Under the pieces are notes generated by a model. That model did no database searches and was not told the origin of the DNA. It was given only the letters and a program-made list of their open reading frames with translations. Shown here in pieces: positions 42,455 to 50,821 of a DNA stretch of 64,000 nucleotides. The translations under genes and the position numbers were made by a program. Each line of letters opens with the position of its first letter. Within the stretch, counting starts at the first letter, position 1. Source of the DNA: Streptomyces humicola (lineage in GTDB: Bacteria > Actinomycetota > Actinomycetes > Streptomycetales > Streptomycetaceae); contig NZ_JANFNG010000010.1 of NCBI RefSeq assembly GCF_024436035.1, positions 62,001-126,000 of the forward strand. The letters are read 5' to 3'.

Positions 42455-42547
42455 CCGAGTTGCGGGCCGGGATCGGAGTGTGGCGAGCGCGTTAAGCTGG
42501 ATGGTCACCCCGTGCCCGCTTGTCCCGCTCGAGAAAGACACTTCCCA

Positions 42548-44496
<1,949 letters not shown>

Positions 44497-44500
<4 letters not shown>

Positions 44501-44682
44501 GCGACGCTGTGAAACAGATCACAGAGGCGGTCGCTGGCTCATCGGAGGCTGAGGCGGCTTCGGTCTTGGCGAACCTGGGGGTTCAGGGCCCCCGGAAGCC
44601 GAAGCGCTCGGCGGCCGCCAGGACCCCGCTCCCGGCTTCTCGGGAGTGCTCCCGCATCCGGAGCCAGATCGAGTGGGTGTAA
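44497..44682 (+). CDS. Small ORF translationally coupled to the radical SAM gene
   Basis: A 61-residue ORF whose ATG overlaps the host gene stop (ATGA). The sequence starts MSDAVKQITEAVAGSSEAEA and is followed by a basic, Ser/Arg-rich half. No domain recognised. It could be a short element gene using host transcription, or the remnant of a longer one. Moderate evidence only. Confidence 0.4.
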
Positions 44683-44779
44683 CCCCGTAGAGGGCGTCTC
44701 AGCCGCGCGTGGCTCCGGCATGGGGGTCGTCCCCGGCCCTCCGCCTGGTGAACGCCAGAGGGCCTGCTGCTGCTCTGGG

Positions 44780-45439
44780 TCAGTGTCCGACGCTCGCCGT
44801 GACTAGCAGCGTGCCAATGTGACCCGCCTCGGGTGCGTCGAGGACGGAGGCGTCAATCTCTGTGAAACCGGCCTTGGCAAGCAGACTTGTCCACTTGCGG
44901 GGCGTGTAACTGTAGCGGTAGGTGAACATCGCCCTCCCGGCGAAACCGCCCTTGTACATGCCCTGCGGCCCGTAGGCGCCGGGGATGGCCGGGGGCTGGG
45001 AGAACGCGAACACTGCGCCGGGGTTCAGTCGCTCGCGGACCAATGGGAAGAGCTTGGCGGGGTCGGTGAACCATGCCGCCCCGAAGATCGAATAGATGGC
45101 GTCGTACGAGTCCGTGCAGCTGCGCAGGTATGCGAGCACTTCGGCGCACTCGAACTGCGCGCCCGTGTCGGCCCACCGCTCGGTGGTCTTCTTCACCATG
45201 ACGGGCGACAGGTCCACGCCGCGCGCTGTGACACCCTGCCCTGCGAGGTAGGCGAGGGCGCGGCCGGTGCCGCAGCCGATCTCCAGCACCGTGCGCGGAT
45301 TGCCGAGGAGTTCGGGGCCGGGGCCGTGGCCTGCGTACTGGGTCCAGTGGAAGACGGGTTCGGCGTCGGGTTTGAAGGCGCTCTCCGCGTAGGTGTCCCA
45401 CAGTTCGGTTTCGGCCTCGATGTCGTGTCGGGCGGGCAT
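44780..45439 (-). CDS. Class I SAM-dependent methyltransferase
   Basis: A 219-residue Rossmann-fold methyltransferase. Motif I is TVLEIGCGTGRALAYLAGQG, followed by GVDLSPVMVKK (acidic residue for SAM ribose) and YDAIYSIFGAAWFTDP. ATG 45439 (MPARHD) is chosen because AGAGGA precedes it; a longer start at 45517 would contain a TTA codon. It follows the Cys/His-rich gene in the same direction, so the two probably form an operon. Substrate unknown; self-modification or cargo chemistry are both possible. Confidence 0.85.
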   Translation of the reverse strand: MPARHDIEAETELWDTYAESAFKPDAEPVFHWTQYAGHGPGPELLGNPRTVLEIGCGTGRALAYLAGQGVTARGVDLSPVMVKKTTERWADTGAQFECAEVLAYLRSCTDSYDAIYSIFGAAWFTDPAKLFPLVRERLNPGAVFAFSQPPAIPGAYGPQGMYKGGFAGRAMFTYRYSYTPRKWTSLLAKAGFTEIDASVLDAPEAGHIGTLLVTASVGH

Positions 45440-45529
45440 CGCATGGTCCTCTAAGTCGGGTGAGCGGAGGGGATACGGGCCTGCCCCCGCCGTTGAGACA
45501 GGGACGGCGGCAGGCACTCTAGCGCTGGA

Positions 45530-46018
45530 TCAGTGGCTGTCGGGCACCTTGTTGTCGCACGGCGAGCACTCGGCGCCGTCTCGTGCCCACAGCTCCTCGT
45601 CCGGCTGGAAGCCGATGGAGCGCAGGAAGTCGGCGGTGCGCAGAACGATGCCGTCACGGCGGCGCTGGATGAATGGAGCGTGATGCTTGTACGCGCCGCC
45701 GTTGTAGAGATCGCAGAACGCGAAGTACACGGGGGTGTCGAGCAAGAGTTGATGCACGCCGATGTCGACGACCTTGCCGACGCCCAGGTGTACCTCGGGG
45801 TGCTCCATGGACGCGATCACGTACATCACGGCGTTGCCCAGGATTCGCTCGGCCAGGTCGCGGACCATGACCTCATCCCGGAGCAGCAGGGCCACTTCGC
45901 GGTCCCAGATCGTCATGCCGCTGTCGAGGACGTTGACGGTGAGGTGCTGGATGTGTGGCTGCACCTCGTTGAGGATGATGTGCGGATCACGCGTCCGCGT
46001 CTGGACGGCTGTGCTCAT
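45530..46018 (-). CDS. Conserved-type Cys/His protein (GRDP-like), element cargo
   Basis: A 162-residue protein starting ATG 46018 after AAGGGG. It resembles, from memory, a family often annotated as glycine-rich-domain-containing protein in Streptomyces: VVDIGVHQLLLDTPVYFAFC followed by a KHHAP segment and an ELWA...CSPC end. Cys102, His112, His113, Cys151 and Cys154 could bind a metal. The function of this family is not known to me. Upstream of the methyltransferase, same strand. Confidence 0.6.
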   Translation of the reverse strand: MSTAVQTRTRDPHIILNEVQPHIQHLTVNVLDSGMTIWDREVALLLRDEVMVRDLAERILGNAVMYVIASMEHPEVHLGVGKVVDIGVHQLLLDTPVYFAFCDLYNGGAYKHHAPFIQRRRDGIVLRTADFLRSIGFQPDEELWARDGAECSPCDNKVPDSH

Positions 46019-46190
46019 CGAACACCCCTTCACTTGTGGTTGGCGTTCAGTGCACTTGCGGGCCCGCTCCGGCCGCACGGATGTCCCGGCGTCGGACGAC
46101 CGGAGTGGGACTGGACCCCGCCTGGTGCTGGGGTCTGCCCACGGGGGGAAGTCGTGGGCAGGAGGAGGTCACCAGCAGCAGGCGGGGGGC

Positions 46191-46301
46191 TCAGGGGTTG
46201 GGGGTGGCGATCACGGATAGACCGATCACCAGACCCGAGGCAAACGCGATGGTGAGCGCGAAGATCGGCCCGGCGTATGCGGCGATCCTGTCCCAGATAT
46301 G
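46191..46301 (-). pseudogene. Small membrane protein, 5'-truncated
   Basis: A minus-strand frame reads HIWDRIAAYAGPIFALTIAF and then ASGLVIGLSVIATPNP-stop: one amphipathic start and a strong transmembrane helix. No ATG, GTG or TTG lies upstream in frame before a stop. The frame meets the truncated regulator head to head at about 46300. Confidence 0.45.
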
Positions 46302-46975
46302 CAGGCAGGCGCGCGGGAGAGCCCAACGACGCCAACAAGCGTCTCGTACAACGCTGGGAGTCCGGGACCATCGCTACACCGCGCCCGGCCTATGCACGCG
46401 CCCTGGAGACCGTTACAGGGCTCCCCATAGAATCGCTCGGCTTCGCGGTGCCCGTTACCGAGGCTCGCGTCTCCGAGGACGGTCACGGTGGTCACGATGT
46501 CGAGCTGTCGCCGTCCGGGATCGGGGCGGCCGGCACTTCGCCGAACGCGCGCCCCTCTCCGCGGGGCAACCTGTCGGGAGTATGGCTCAGCCGATACGAG
46601 TACTTCAGCTCAGGGCGCAGCGACACGTTCATCGGCCTGCACTTCGTCGTAGTCCTCCAACACGGCGACCGGTTGACCATGCGCAGTTTGCCCGGCTCCT
46701 CCGCCTCGCCGTTGACCATGGACCTGACCGTGGACGGCAACGTCATCACGGGCACGTGGGTGGAACAGACGGCAGAGTCCGGTTACTACCGGGGCGCTCG
46801 GTACCACGGTGCGATCCAGATGCTCGTGGAGCCCACTGGGCGGCGCATGGTCGGCAAGTGGGTCGGGTTCGGCAAAGAGATGGACGTCAACACAGGTCCG
46901 TGGGAACTGGTCTTCCAGGACGCGTCGACAATCAAAGCAACCCTGGAGACTTACAACCGGCGCCCCGAGGTGTAA
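46277..46975 (+). CDS. XRE-type regulator, helix-turn-helix truncated, with beta-rich C-terminal domain
   Basis: A 232-residue frame from ATG 46277. From residue 14 it matches the second half of an XRE helix-turn-helix (AGEPNDANKRLVQRWESGTI, then ARALETVTGLPIESLGF); the first ~30 residues of the usual domain are missing and replaced by unrelated sequence antisense to the membrane ORF. The C-terminal ~130 residues (LSGVWLSRYEYFSSGRSDTF to GPWELVFQDAS) look like the lipocalin-like barrel found in such Streptomyces regulators. DNA binding is probably lost. Confidence 0.6.
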   Translation: MRRSCPRYAGRRAGEPNDANKRLVQRWESGTIATPRPAYARALETVTGLPIESLGFAVPVTEARVSEDGHGGHDVELSPSGIGAAGTSPNARPSPRGNLSGVWLSRYEYFSSGRSDTFIGLHFVVVLQHGDRLTMRSLPGSSASPLTMDLTVDGNVITGTWVEQTAESGYYRGARYHGAIQMLVEPTGRRMVGKWVGFGKEMDVNTGPWELVFQDASTIKATLETYNRRPEV

Positions 46976-47000
46976 CCCCCGCTCCCTCACGAGCGGAGCC

Positions 47001-47043
47001 GCCCCCGCTTCTGCGTACCCCCAGCACGCAGGAGCGGGGCTTT
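47001..47043 (+). terminator. Terminator after the regulator
   Basis: CCCCGCTTCTGCGT (47003-47016) pairs with ACGCAGGAGCGGGG (47026-47039) with one mismatch, followed by TTT. Confidence 0.75.
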
Positions 47044-47126
47044 CCGCTGGTCAGCGCGCACTGTGGGCATGCGGCCGGCCGGAGAGAGTTGGGCCGGTGT
47101 CCTGCCCGGTCTGGGGCCGGGTGCGG

Positions 47127-47516
47127 CCAGGGGGCCTTACGCTCGTCAAGCGAATCGGGTGGGGCGGAGCCCTGCCCGGTGAATCCGGACGATTGGCCCC
47201 CTGGTCGTGCCCGACGCGGGTCCCGGATCGGGGAGGTGGCTCAAGTCTCGTAGGCCGTCCGCCCCCGGCCCGTGGGCAACGAGTCCCACCGCGGCGTGCT
47301 GGCCGATGTGGCGTGTGCGGCGGTCTGGCCGGGGCCCGATGCGGTCGGCAGAGCCGATACAGCACACGAGAGTGCCCCTGCTGGTTGCGGCTGGCGCGGT
47401 GCTTTTCGGGTTCAAGGGGTCCGGGCGGTGGGCGCCCTGGCGACCGGCGGGAACGACGCCCACGCCCCACGCCCAGCCGGGGCGCCAGGGGGCGCCCGGC
47501 GCGCCGAAGGCGCGCC
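47127..47516. repeat. Inverted-repeat cluster, candidate origin or transfer site
   Basis: This non-coding GC-rich stretch holds CCAGGGGGCC (47127-47136) and its perfect inverse (47195-47204), a second pair built on GGCGCCCTGG/CCAGGGGGCGCC (about 47430-47495), and a palindrome GGCGCGCC-GAA-GGCGCGCC (47498-47516). It ends exactly where the replication-initiator relic begins. Four copies of the CCAGGG-type box suggest a protein-binding array. Nothing coding is seen in 47044-47516. Confidence 0.45.
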
Positions 47517-47858
47517 CTTGATGAATTCGAGGATCTGAGGCTACGCGCCTGGGCTCACATGCTCGGCTTTCGCGGCCATGTCTTGACAAAATCCCGCGTC
47601 TACTCGACCACGTACGGGGCCCTGCGCGCTGCCCGTGACGAATACCAGCGGGAAACGGCAGGCAGGGAATCTTGCGGCGACGCGGATAGCGAAACCGTCA
47701 CGAAATCGGTGTGGCGGTACGTCGGCAGCGGTCACACCCTCGGCGAAGCATGGTTCGCGCGCGGAATCGCAGAAGAGAGGGCCTTCGCTCGTGAGGCGGC
47801 GCGAGATGACGCAATAGACGGGGGGCGGCGTCATGTCGGCACAAGACAAGCGGCGTGA
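47517..47858 (+). pseudogene. Replication initiator RepSA-type, C-terminal relic
   Basis: The frame reads LRLRAWAHMLGFRGHVLTKS, then RVYSTTYGALRAARDEYQRE and SVWRYVGSGHTLGEAWFARG. This is the characteristic end of the RepSA-like initiators of pSAM2-type actinomycete integrative elements, recalled from the family (HMLGFRGH.LTKSR.YSTTF). The N-terminal ~350 residues are absent. It overlaps the next small gene by 26 bp, the compact arrangement of such elements. Not functional. Confidence 0.7.
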
Positions 47859-48021
47859 CCTTGAGAAGTGGGATGAGTCTGTGCGTCGGCCGGCGGCCAA
47901 GCGTCCGACGAGGAGGACGGCGAAGAGAGCACAACGGCTTGCGTTAATCGAGAGCGAAATCGTGATTGTGGACGACGACGGAACTGAAAAGCCGTTTGAC
48001 CCTTCGTCCTGGTTCGAGTGA
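47833..48021 (+). CDS. Small basic protein with TTA codon, possible directionality factor
   Basis: A 62-residue protein: very basic first half (RRPAAKRPTRRTAKRAQR) and acidic C-terminus (IVIVDDDGTEKPFDPSSWFE). ATG 47833 follows GGGGGCGG. The leucine codon at 47944-47946 is TTA. In pSAM2-type elements this position carries excision or regulatory genes, but no helix-turn-helix is evident. It faces the integrase gene end to end. Role inferred only from position. Confidence 0.5.
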   Translation: MSAQDKRRDLEKWDESVRRPAAKRPTRRTAKRAQRLALIESEIVIVDDDGTEKPFDPSSWFE

Positions 48022-48079
48022 GAGAAGAAGCTGGCGGGTAAGCAGGGAGCAGCTTCACTCGTCGGTCACGCCCTCTGCA

Positions 48080-49699
48080 TCAAAATGCCTCCGCAAAGTC
48101 GTCTTCTTTGAGTATCAGACGGTCTCGTACGTCCTTGGGGATCATCAGCTTCATGTGGATACGGGGGGCACGAACACCCTGCACCTTGCTTCGTTTGATC
48201 TCGCACTTCACGCCGACTCGAAGGAGGTCTGCCGCCATGGCTTCCATGCCTCCCTCCTCCCAGTGCTCACGGAAGGTCTTCCCGTTGTGCACGTTAACCC
48301 ACCGGTCCTGCGTGGTGTCGGGGTCGATGGTCTCAAGCTCGCTGATCAGCTTGTCTAGGGTCTCCTCGGCCTGCTCCCGCGTGAACCGCGTCTTCGTGAA
48401 CCGCCCTCCCGGCTCCAACTCCTTCATGTAGTAGGCGACGGACTCTTCGAGCCTCTTGACCTTCTTACGGGCCTCGGCACCCTGTGCGTATTCCCGGGTC
48501 TGTACGGGTTCGTTCCCCAGAACGGACAACACGTCCGTGACAAGTTGGTTGTAGACATCCTCGGGATTCGGCGCTCCGAGTCCGCCGCTGCGGCACCCGC
48601 TACAGCGCAAGTACCTGTAAGTCCCGACCTTGTTGGTCGTCTTTTGGACGGTCATGTTCGTCTGGCAGTCGGCACAGACTAGGACGCCGAGGAACTTCGT
48701 GGCTCCGCCAGGCTGACGTGTGGGCTGGTCCTTGCTTCGCCTGTGGAGGGCGGCTTGGAGGGTGTTGAACTCGTCTTCGGTGAAGATCGGCTCCGCGACT
48801 TTGATCGGCTTGCCGTCCTTGCCGAGGACGAGCTTGGACCGGCGTTGCCCACCGTTCTTGTCCTCTTCCACTCGGTACCCCATGAGGGCGGGGTTCTTGA
48901 GCCTGCGGAGGAGCGTGCTGGCAGTCAGCCCCGGGCCGCACAGTCCGGCGCGGACGAGCACCTTCACCATCCGCCGGGCTGAGGCGCTCTTCTCCCTCAT
49001 GGCCGCACGTCGGCACCAGTGCAGGGCGCGGTAGGCGTCCTCGTCGATAGAGAGGGCAACCTTCCCGCTCTCGTCCTCCGTGGTGACGTAGCCGTAGGCA
49101 GGCTTGCCGACCAGCCACTCACCTTGTGTCTTCGCGTAGTCCCAGAGGCTCGCCACGCGGGTGCTGGTGTTGGCGGCCTCGATCTCGGCGATGCCGCCAA
49201 CGATCGTGACCATGATCTTCCCGGCCGTGGTGGTCAAGTCGATGCTGTCGTTCTTGGAGACGAGGTTCTTCCCGTACTCAAGGCACCAGTCGATCATGGT
49301 GGACAGGTCCGAGAGACGACGTATGAAGCGATCCAGCTTCCAGAAGAGCAGTACGTCGAATTCCGGGGACCGGTTGTTGAGCCAGTCGCCGAGCTCCTTG
49401 CGCTTCCAGGGTGGAACCCTGGTGGCGCTCACATTGAGGTCGCTGGCGACGCCGACGACCCTGCACCCCATGTCCCTCGCCAGGAGTCGAAGATCAAGTT
49501 CCTGTCGGACTGGGGATGTGGTGTCTTCCGTGAGTACGGACAGCCGGACGGATAGGAGAGCGCGGGGAGCGTCCTGCGGTAGTAAGGCCTCCGCGCTCTT
49601 GAGTTCCTCCAGTAGTGCCAGGTCGGCCTCTGTCCACTCGGTCTCTGCGGAGTAGGCCCTCTGCTCACTTGCGGTGCGCCGCGCTCCTCTTCTCGCCAT
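48080..49699 (-). CDS. Large serine recombinase (integrase), TTA-containing
   Basis: A 539-residue site-specific recombinase. The resolvase-like catalytic domain has Arg52-x-Ser54 (nucleophile) in LLSVRLSVLTED, then SPVRQE, and VLLFWKLDRFIRRL with Asp123/Arg124/Arg127. A recombinase domain follows (GKPAYGYV, NPALMGYRV), then a zinc ribbon CADC...YLRCSGC and a coiled-coil region (RKKVKRLEESVAYYMKELE). All parts look intact. Leu39 is encoded by TTA (49583-49585). It transcribes away from the nearby right junction. Predicted to have inserted the element and, with a directionality factor, to excise it. Confidence 0.93.
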   Translation of the reverse strand: MARRGARRTASEQRAYSAETEWTEADLALLEELKSAEALLPQDAPRALLSVRLSVLTEDTTSPVRQELDLRLLARDMGCRVVGVASDLNVSATRVPPWKRKELGDWLNNRSPEFDVLLFWKLDRFIRRLSDLSTMIDWCLEYGKNLVSKNDSIDLTTTAGKIMVTIVGGIAEIEAANTSTRVASLWDYAKTQGEWLVGKPAYGYVTTEDESGKVALSIDEDAYRALHWCRRAAMREKSASARRMVKVLVRAGLCGPGLTASTLLRRLKNPALMGYRVEEDKNGGQRRSKLVLGKDGKPIKVAEPIFTEDEFNTLQAALHRRSKDQPTRQPGGATKFLGVLVCADCQTNMTVQKTTNKVGTYRYLRCSGCRSGGLGAPNPEDVYNQLVTDVLSVLGNEPVQTREYAQGAEARKKVKRLEESVAYYMKELEPGGRFTKTRFTREQAEETLDKLISELETIDPDTTQDRWVNVHNGKTFREHWEEGGMEAMAADLLRVGVKCEIKRSKVQGVRAPRIHMKLMIPKDVRDRLILKEDDFAEAF

Positions 49700-49741
49700 G
49701 TTGGGATGCTAGCCTGGTTTTGGAGCCGTATCCATGTGACT

Positions 49742-49793
49742 GCAGATGGACACGCACATCCAGCCGGCCCACCGGCAAGAAGCTGCTGCCGCT
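49742..49793 (+). repeat. Right attachment site (attR) with displaced native gene tail
   Basis: Contains GCAGATGGA (49742-49750) and AAGAAGCTGCTGCCGCT (49777-49793). Spacing between these two blocks is 2 bp shorter than at the left end. The sequence reads MDTHIQ in one frame and PTGKKLLPLTVVK-stop (ending at TAG 49808-49810) in another, so the original chromosomal C-terminus is preserved but out of frame. Confidence 0.75.
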
Positions 49794-49893
49794 CACGGTG
49801 GTCAAGTAGTCGAGTACACGGTGGTCGGACAGCCAGGGCCGAGCGGCCGGCGAAGTGGCCGCCGTTTCGGCGCGTAACCTTAAAAGTGAAGAA

Positions 49894-49978: not shown

Positions 49979-50821
49979 GTGCAGCGCATTCGCCTGCGCT
50001 ACACCAAGCGCGGCCGCCTCCGGTTCACCAGCCACCGCGACTTCCAGCGTGCCTTCGAAAGGGCGCTGCGGCGCGCCGAGGTGCCGATGGCCTACTCGGC
50101 GGGCTTCACTCCGCACCCCAAGGTCAGCTACGCGGGCGCCGCACCCACCGGCGTCGCCAGCGAGGCCGAGTATCTGGAGATCGCACTCACCGAGCCGCGC
50201 GACCCGGAACGGCTCCGGACGCTGCTCGACGAGTCGCTGCCGCCCGGCCTCGATGTGGTCGAGGCGGTCGAGGCCCGCACTTCCGGGCTCGCCGACCGGC
50301 TCGAGGCATCGGTGTGGCAGCTGCGGCTCGACGGGGTGGCTCCCGCCGAGGCGGAGCGTGCGGTCGCCGCGTTCCTCGCCGCTGGCACCGTCGAGGTGAA
50401 GCGGACGACGAAGAACGGGCTGCGCGCCTTCGACGCGCGCGGTGCGGTCACGGCGCTGGAGGTTGTGGCAGAGCGCGCGCAGGCGCTGCAGCAGGTCGAC
50501 GGGGGTCCGTCGACGGGCTTGTCGACAGACGTCGAACACAGTGCCGATAGGCCGGGGCGTGCTGGCTGTGCGATACTGCGGCTGGTTGTTCGGCATCTGA
50601 CACCTGCCGTACGACCCGACGACGTCCTGTCCGGCCTCCGTGCGACGGCCGACCTCGCGCCGCCGGTTCCCGCAGAGGTGACCAGGCTGGCGCAGGGGCC
50701 GCTCGACGAGGAGTCCGGCACGGTGACCGATCCGTTGGCGCCAGATCGCGATGCTGCCACGGCCGCCCCACCCACGGCCGCCGGGCTGACCGCCGCGACG
50801 GTGTCGGACGGTTCCGCGTAG
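49979..50821 (+). CDS. TIGR03936-type radical SAM-linked protein (DUF2344)
   Basis: A 280-residue protein starting VQRIRLRYTKRGRLRFTSHR, then FQRAFERALRRAEVPMAYSAGF and HPKVSYAGAAPTG. This family is encoded next to, or fused with, TIGR03960-type radical SAM proteins and presumably acts with them; no reaction is known. GTG 49979 is the conventional start. However, CTG 49937 is in frame, 10 bp after AAGGA, and gives GKRQPEGPPPAPAVQ, the N-terminus I recall from relatives, so a CTG start is plausible. The C-terminal ~60 residues are variable. Confidence 0.85.
   Translation: MQRIRLRYTKRGRLRFTSHRDFQRAFERALRRAEVPMAYSAGFTPHPKVSYAGAAPTGVASEAEYLEIALTEPRDPERLRTLLDESLPPGLDVVEAVEARTSGLADRLEASVWQLRLDGVAPAEAERAVAAFLAAGTVEVKRTTKNGLRAFDARGAVTALEVVAERAQALQQVDGGPSTGLSTDVEHSADRPGRAGCAILRLVVRHLTPAVRPDDVLSGLRATADLAPPVPAEVTRLAQGPLDEESGTVTDPLAPDRDAATAAPPTAAGLTAATVSDGSA

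Follow-up and report, generated by a model that had tools for sequence, protein, structure and literature searches.

We analyzed a stretch of 64,000 nucleotides of Streptomyces humicola DNA (contig NZ_JANFNG010000010.1, positions 62,001 to 126,000 of the forward strand; hereafter the window, in whose numbering all positions are given). An element of 5.3 kb lies at ~44402–49741 of this window, in the 3′ end of a host radical-SAM gene. It carries an intact serine integrase gene (int) and, beside it, the C-terminal end of a RepSA-type replication initiator gene (rep). The features of the element and its flanks, with the cargo genes left for later, are the following:

42512–44500, + strand: host B12-binding radical-SAM gene (NCBIfam TIGR03960, 708 bits; start of the open reading frame (ORF) as listed)
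44402–44403, + strand: attL, with the predicted central dinucleotide CC, the first two bases of a Pro codon (alignments)
44404–44500, + strand: 3′ tail of the radical-SAM gene supplied by the element (QMDTWVQVGPTGKKLLPLTV...)
44497–44682, + strand: putative 61-aa recombination directionality factor (RDF, excision factor) of the phiJoe gp52 family (profile–profile comparison; position)
47036–47525, + strand: conserved non-coding block with a GC hairpin and CTTGA at its end, the putative RepSA double-strand origin
47521–47526, no strand: deletion joint, where the block meets rep coding sequence
47526–47858, + strand: RepSA C-terminal relic (PF20199, NF041486)
47833–48021, + strand: 62-aa ORF between rep and int, with the motif SEIV(I/V)VDDDGxE(E/K)P(F/Y)DP (related loci)
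48080–49699, − strand: large serine integrase, 539 aa, intact (Pfam, dN/dS)
49740–49741, + strand: attR, with the predicted central dinucleotide CT, a mismatch to the CC of attL (alignments)
49742–49809, + strand: displaced native 3′ end of the radical-SAM gene, now out of frame (repeat; by eye 2 bases shorter than that of relatives)
49979–50821, + strand: host DUF2344/TIGR03936 gene, the next after the radical-SAM gene at the empty site

The first-pass annotation had placed the C-terminal end of a RepSA-like initiator beside a serine integrase, and had named a profile search of 47517–47858 as the test of this assignment. That search returned the RepSA family (Pfam PF20199, E 4.5e-22, 79.2 bits against a cut-off of 34), covering positions 360–438 of the 438 in the profile. 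The relic also matched positions 345–441 of 443 of the NCBIfam model NF041486, rep_init_RepSA (E 3.1e-27), with 95.6 bits, far below the 700 bits that are the full-length cut-off of this model. Together with the Resolvase domain of the neighbouring integrase, these matches bear the assignment out. The window retains just the last quarter of the initiator. The rep-derived sequence starts at ~47526, and the nine bases before it (47517–47525) resemble the end of the upstream non-coding block. Its frame is open for ~110 codons, and the GC content by codon position (0.68/0.58/0.69) gives a weak coding signal. No Pfam replication family was found in the other ORFs of the element that were tested.

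The relic and int are convergent, with the 62-aa ORF between them. The integrase frame has no internal stop, and the protein matched the Pfam families Resolvase (89.9 bits) and Zn_ribbon_recom (33.5 bits), with Recombinase at 20.3 bits against a cut-off of 21.1. It is 68–69% identical to the integrases of phages Maneekul and Joe, over 93–99% of the query, and up to 81% identical to those of related loci. The ratio of nonsynonymous to synonymous change (dN/dS) against five relatives was 0.12–0.15, which indicates that the integrase evolves under constraint.

The 3′ end of the radical-SAM gene is present in two copies. Its codons past ~44402 come from the element, and a second copy lies at 49768–49800 (85% over 33 nt), just ahead of the DUF2344 gene. 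In another genome of the genus (G001, locus L092), 236 nt separate the radical-SAM stop from the DUF2344 gene, with no element match between. From this empty site and the duplicated 3′ end, we concluded that ~44402–49741 is an insertion. The attP of phage phiJoe, with its annotated core GG, aligns to the copies on both sides of the element. The attL core was placed by alignment to this attP (annotated central dinucleotide GG/CC) and to related loci, and it reads CC in all 19 loci with the radical-SAM gene in view. The attachment site is the phiJoe/SCO2603 site, which is already known, like the recombination system: a phiJoe-type integrase, the radical-SAM site and a gp52-type RDF at the other end are all present in the window element. 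At four related loci (L054, L055, L063 and L067), 5–11 kb of additional DNA separates attR from the DUF2344 gene, which suggests that elements accumulate at this site.

Of 394 Streptomycetaceae genomes searched for the integrase, 56 have a match at E 1e-30 or better, the own genome included. We examined 48 loci, namely the window, 12 named loci from contigs of GTDB genomes, and 35 regions of 20 kb or limited by the contig; they span the 42 best-scoring places outside the own genome, down to 470 bits. A RepSA stretch of >300 aa lies near the integrase in 26 of the 48 loci, and 21 of these 26 also have a match to an FtsK/TraB-type translocase. Hence elements that combine this integrase with a long rep and a TraB-type gene, the kind which the first-pass annotation had proposed to look for, do exist. 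Among the five rep-bearing loci without a TraB match, two are cut by the contig end (L055 and L072) and three gave no match (L044, L060 and L079). GntR was found in 19 of the 26, a match beyond int in L079 being uncounted. Pfam confirmed FtsK_SpoIIIE in 3/3 TraB proteins tested, GntR in 2/2 and full RepSA in 1/1. The gene order radical-SAM gene, RDF, TraB, Rep, Int is found in L049 (Streptomyces sp. NRRL WC-3742), L050 (Kitasatospora sp. MAA19), L062 and L073. The window element itself gave no TraB match in tblastn with four TraB queries at E 1e-4. Among the 47 other loci, only L076 shows just the C-terminus of Rep, and its contig ends there.

Comparison with these relatives identified how the relic adjoins the sequence before it. 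The non-coding block upstream of the relic is ~67–72% identical to that of related elements over parts of 47032–47281, and ~76–87% over parts of 47422–47525. In the relatives, the block lies 15–71 bp beyond the gntR stop in 11 of 13 cases; the distance is larger in L066 (282 bp) and L078 (342 bp). In the window, the hairpin together with CTTGATGAA holds the origin consensus, in which CTTG starts at 47517 and the nick is predicted at 47520^47521. Sequence of rep follows from ~TTC (47526), 1–5 nt past the predicted nick, so that the origin motif is cut at its 3′ side. As the block lies beyond gntR in the relatives, yet abuts rep in the window, the joint marks a deletion. In the relative L058, the corresponding points (4518 and 8708) are ~4.2 kb apart. 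A single deletion can explain the relic, with gntR, tra and most of rep gone.

The block ends in a recognizable motif. CTTG^A is the nick sequence of phiX174 and pC194. RepSA-SAM2 has been related to the phiX174 group in the available text of Ghinet 2011 (PMC3218068). Because of this motif and this relation, we read the non-coding block as probably being the double-strand origin at which RepSA is predicted to nick. The search pattern was CTTG(A/G) and a spaced AGT after a hairpin, so that CTTG and AGT are invariant by construction. The hairpin–CTTGA motif was present in 19 of the 26 rep-bearing loci, a match inside int in L044 being kept out of this count, and in 7 of 15 other AICE loci (actinomycete integrative and conjugative elements). 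The pattern also matched in 2 of 22 rep-less loci and at 1 place in 148 kb of control sequence. Five further matches in rep-bearing loci (including L044) and the two rep-less ones were unlike the motif by eye. The stems differ in sequence but pair: the 27 sequences contain 13 stem types, with a mean score of 7.7 vs 3.8 for shuffled sequences, and 5.4% of shuffled upstream stretches attain the median stem score. The motif may be a general tag for RepSA origins. A variant, CTTGATCCAGTAxAG, was seen in L168, L169 and L174, two of them loci with RepSA of the tyrosine-integrase side of the tree described below and one of the serine side. The block was also inspected for 8-bp repeats like those of clt; no 8-mer exceeded three copies in any of 13 regions, and no transfer locus was identified.

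The position of the joint next to the predicted nick raises the possibility that RepSA nicking may have caused the deletion. The origin and rep share CTTnnnGAA at the joint, and an ordinary microhomology deletion explains it equally well. Recurrent Rep-mediated deletion was considered and rejected: the partial Reps of L180 and L181 (C-terminus only) and L182 (rep split in two matches), whose C-terminal matches start at profile positions 343–350, are without the joint of the window. A nick-driven deletion would therefore rest on one case.

Next to the gene content, the phylogenies place the element. In an integrase tree of 57 rows, the window falls in a set of 9 (6 rep-bearing and 3 not, itself included), which lies inside a set of 12 rows, 9 of them rep-bearing. 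The integrases of the 9 phages group in a clade of their own (100/99). On this tree, no fewer than 7 changes of the rep label are required. In a RepSA tree of 58 rows, 36 rows make up a serine-integrase side (100/100): 26 of the integrase group of the window, 9 beside serine integrases of other kinds, as assigned by Pfam (for L143 below the cut-off), and L141, which like L146 has a serine recombinase. The tyrosine side has 22 rows, 20 of them with tyrosine-type neighbours; 13 of these calls are from Pfam above cut-off, two from matches below it (L142 and L147), one from an N-terminal domain (L149), and four from tblastn alone (L002, L003, L139 and L144). The neighbour in L137 matched no Pfam family. 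The label of the phiJoe-type integrase needs 5 changes on the RepSA tree. In one case (L146/L168, G053:C103), a tyrosine-side RepSA lies beside a convergent serine integrase (Resolvase, 93.8 bits), which is an independent integrase exchange.

Since RepSA is split by integrase type, RepSA and serine integrases are long-standing partners in this sample, exchanges having occurred mostly among serine integrases, and the window element can be explained without a recent swap. The split also suggests that the RepSA elements of Streptomycetaceae comprise two long-separated lineages by integrase type. All RepSA of Streptomycineae were placed in one subfamily in Ghinet 2011 (PMC3218068), the available text of which does not describe a serine/tyrosine split.

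Taken together, these results indicate with high confidence that the element derives by deletion from a serine-integrase AICE. It is an AICE-derived remnant and not an AICE, having int and the att sites, a Rep reduced to profile positions 360–438, and no TraB. In an intact relative, the order is attL, RDF, variable cargo, origin block, gntR (−), small genes, traB, repSA, the small ORF, int (−) and attR. The integrase would recombine attP with attB in the radical-SAM 3′ end, the replacement tail keeping the host protein whole. In the excised circle, RepSA would nick the origin and start rolling-circle replication, and TraB would move double-stranded DNA between mycelia. In the window, a deletion of ~4.2 kb fused the origin block to the rep codon that corresponds to ~360 in the RepSA profile, and took away gntR, traB and most of rep, while Int and RDF stayed intact. 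With Rep and TraB gone, the element is not expected to replicate or to transfer on its own.

Excision is also affected in this reading. Serine integrases require matching central dinucleotides. The attR core of the window, CT, does not match the CC of attL, and excision is therefore probably impaired, the mismatch being predicted to block or weaken it. As part of a Pro codon in the restored ORF, the attL core is under constraint. Among elements at the radical-SAM site, the attR core is CC in 24 of 25 that bear rep and in 6 of 13 that do not (Fisher p 9e-4); this count leaves out L079, L080 and L084–L088 (other site), L074 and L076 (contig ends; both CC) and L082 (no attR). The p-value is 0.002 when the contig-cut L074 and L076 are taken as rep-less, or when the poorly aligned L081 is dropped. 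A path of decay emerges, in which rep and tra are lost by a deletion beside the putative origin and the attR, no longer coding, then drifts.

Several observations weigh against this interpretation. The scores of the relic against individual Reps are mixed: the best are to serine-side Reps of elements with other integrases (L131 and L126) as well as of phiJoe-site ones, and the best tyrosine-side Rep reaches 92 bits, compared with 115 for the top, while the serine-side L148 and L132 score below 92. Because of these mixed scores, the relic by itself is not firmly placed among the Reps. The size of the deletion (~4.2 kb) is borrowed from relatives, and several events could have produced the joint. 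The three cargo genes have no match in the other 47 loci. Some of the ‘rep-less’ rows of the integrase tree stand for loci truncated by a contig end (L074, L076 and L080). The association of CC with rep counts related elements, ignoring phylogeny, with rows re-scored and dropped by hand, and a sequencing error in the attR core of the window is possible.

The first-pass annotation had offered two histories, either the loss of Rep and transfer functions from a replicating integrative element or an integrase swap that made a hybrid. In the form weighed here, the second would be a phage-like serine-integrase cassette with a recently acquired part of a pSAM2-type element that has a tyrosine integrase, such as a resident one. 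Candidate donors are at hand, as three full-length RepSA genes lie elsewhere in the genome (G000:C10, G000:C76 and G000:C28; L051–L053), each with a downstream tyrosine integrase match (tblastn; Pfam for one), and L146 is one such exchange on the RepSA tree. However, the relic is 45–51% identical to these three resident Reps and up to 62–65% to serine-side Reps, and the order of rep, small ORF and convergent int, as well as the adjoining origin block, match those of serine AICEs. As the tree sets the RepSA of serine-integrase elements apart on a side of its own, we consider the integrase swap very unlikely. The loss of Rep and transfer functions agrees with the rep/TraB-bearing relatives, the nesting of the integrase and the visible deletion joint. 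The premise that tyrosine integrases are the norm in pSAM2-type elements was right in part, serine integrases being found in 19 of 144 AICEs in the available text of Ghinet 2011 (PMC3218068).

The remnant could also have been put to use. A truncated Rep kept by selection, as an interfering or superinfection-exclusion factor, in an element mobilised by helpers giving Rep and Tra, would fit the open frame of the relic, the retained origin hairpin, int and RDF, and the presence of three other RepSA elements in the genome. These three are possible helper candidates, though of the other RepSA lineage. However, a Rep reduced to its C-terminus recurs among the related loci just in the contig-cut L076, the partial Reps of L180–L182 do not share the joint, the origin motif has lost its 3′ side and the coding signal of the relic is weak; we give this explanation even less credence than the swap. 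The least probable of all, in our judgement, is a phage-derived minimal element of int and RDF that acquired a rep fragment by chance. Its Int and RDF are indeed homologous to those of phiJoe-group phages, and rep-less elements with int and RDF occur at this site (L048, L070 and L071, and in the available text of Fogg 2017, PMC5311408). Against it, the phage integrases are one separate clade and that of the window nests with those of rep-bearing elements, and the fragment sits at the place of rep in intact AICEs, flanked by their origin block. The element is thus best explained as a serine-integrase AICE reduced by deletion.

Compared with known systems, the remnant shares parts with several of them. 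pSAM2 carries RepSA, Xis and a tyrosine integrase. Like it, the window element has a RepSA-family initiator beside an integration module, and its intact relatives have GntR and TraB-type genes. Unlike pSAM2, the integrase is a convergent serine integrase, the target is a protein gene and not a tRNA gene, no Xis was found in the window element, and the RDF lies at the far end. SCCmec, at the 3′ end of rlmH/orfX, is another case where a large serine recombinase inserts into the 3′ end of a gene and the tail is restored. The recombinase family and the biology differ from those of the window element, and SCCmec is not known to have an RDF start that overlaps the restored gene.

Serine-integrase AICEs such as Faln2929 of Frankia have RepSA, an FtsK-type Tra and a serine integrase convergent with tra and rep, and insert in a protein gene, according to the available text of Ghinet 2011 (PMC3218068). 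Unlike Faln2929, which disrupts a putative endonuclease gene, the window element is without Tra and most of Rep. The available text of Fogg 2017 (PMC5311408) puts the phiJoe attB 74 bp from the end of a SCO2606-like radical-SAM ORF, shows insertion at this attB and the RDF activity of gp52, and describes SCO2603-type elements at the same attB, the one in S. coelicolor measuring 3.9 kb and others up to 40 kb. With these elements and prophage phiJoe the window element shares the target gene and position, a homologous integrase (~69% to Joe), the gp52-type RDF at the other end and variable cargo; it differs in the attR core mismatch, the rep relic and the origin block. That text draws no connection between SCO2603-type elements and RepSA/TraB AICEs, and searches of the open-access PMC literature (main texts, without supplements) brought up no description of RepSA in phiJoe-site elements. 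Our results link the mobile elements at the phiJoe attB with RepSA/TraB AICEs as the same thing. As serine-integrase AICEs and insertions at this site are already known, the element is a remnant of an ordinary kind with an unusually clear anatomy. It shows how such elements decay, and how their exit switch may be wired to a host gene.

This wiring concerns the other end of the element, where the 61-aa ORF is a putative RDF with an activity predicted from homology. Profile–profile comparison with phage gp52 homologues gave a probability of 98.2% (0.4% for a control ORF), the pairwise BLASTP match being weak (E 1.7). In the window, the RDF start overlaps the radical-SAM stop by 4 nt (ATGA). In 9 of 9 phages (L090 and L160–L167), 30 codons in the frame of the host gene come after the attP core and lead to a stop, which overlaps an RDF start codon by exactly 4 nt, as ATGA or GTGA. 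The overlapping start is the annotated one in six of the nine; the RDF is annotated 3 or 15 nt further in for Lannister and phiScoe15, and is unannotated in Kaine. Among the 19 loci with the radical-SAM gene in view, the RDF start lies −16 to +24 nt from the radical-SAM stop in 15, with an offset of −3 in the window and four other loci, and no RDF was found by that stop in L075 and L081–L083.

The element-supplied tail differs from the attR remnant at third codon positions only, over the 30 nt compared; this comparison was located with a pattern favouring third-position differences, which biases counts by codon position, and the pN/pS analysis uses a position anchor. For the phage codons past the at most 50-bp attP, pN/pS was 0.13 when read in the host frame; of the two other frames, one gave 1.41 and the second, without any synonymous change, an undefined ratio. 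Between elements, the ratio was 0.40 in the host frame vs 1.93 and 1.72, and between phages and elements 0.51 vs 1.59 and 1.87; the element sets include L048, which has a length change. A test of variable sites by codon position in the phages (8, 7, 14) was not significant (p 0.07). These values indicate that the codons past the at most 50-bp attP evolve as coding sequence in the host frame only, and suggest that integration repairs the host gene and places the RDF behind the radical-SAM gene.

It is possible, and we propose it only tentatively, that the attP of phiJoe-group phages and radical-SAM-site elements is laid out so that the RDF becomes the second cistron of the host gene. Read-through together with translational coupling may then drive expression of the RDF, mainly in the integrated state. 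In vitro, gp52 blocks integration strongly and drives excision weakly, according to the available text of Fogg 2017 (PMC5311408), and for this reason an RDF driven by the host gene may serve mainly to prevent another integration at a site already occupied. If this coupling is real, excision or site immunity in the phiJoe group depends on a host promoter. The overlap of RDF and host gene is unmentioned in the main text available for PMC5311408, where ‘overlap’ occurs 0 times, and no description of it came up in the searches of open-access PMC main texts.

The 62-aa ORF between rep and int was considered as an excisionase at the classical place and rejected, with no BLASTP alignment to gp52 and a profile probability of 0.4%. 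Similar stretches occur in 26 other loci, and the motif is legible in 21 of the 27 ORFs, which were extracted by a crude rule with the motif counted by eye. No match was found in 12 other RepSA loci (L168–L179). The ORF therefore seems to go with the phiJoe-type integrase group and not with rep.

The remaining part of the element holds its cargo:

44780–45517, − strand: SAM-dependent methyltransferase (Methyltransf_23, 52.8 bits)
45530–46078, − strand: 182-aa protein (relatives in Streptomycetaceae)
46277–46975, + strand: 232-aa protein, N-terminus weakly like NsdA-family regulators

The 232-aa protein reached 22.2 bits with NF053720, far below the cut-off of 75, and had no Pfam match; the 182-aa protein had no Pfam or NCBIfam match at E 0.1. 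Relatives of the latter were found in 90 of 249 Streptomycetaceae genomes at E 1e-10, the own genome included. In the nine other Streptomycetaceae genomes inspected (L151–L159), which were the best-scoring ones from the search with the 182-aa protein, its gene and the methyltransferase gene are also adjacent.

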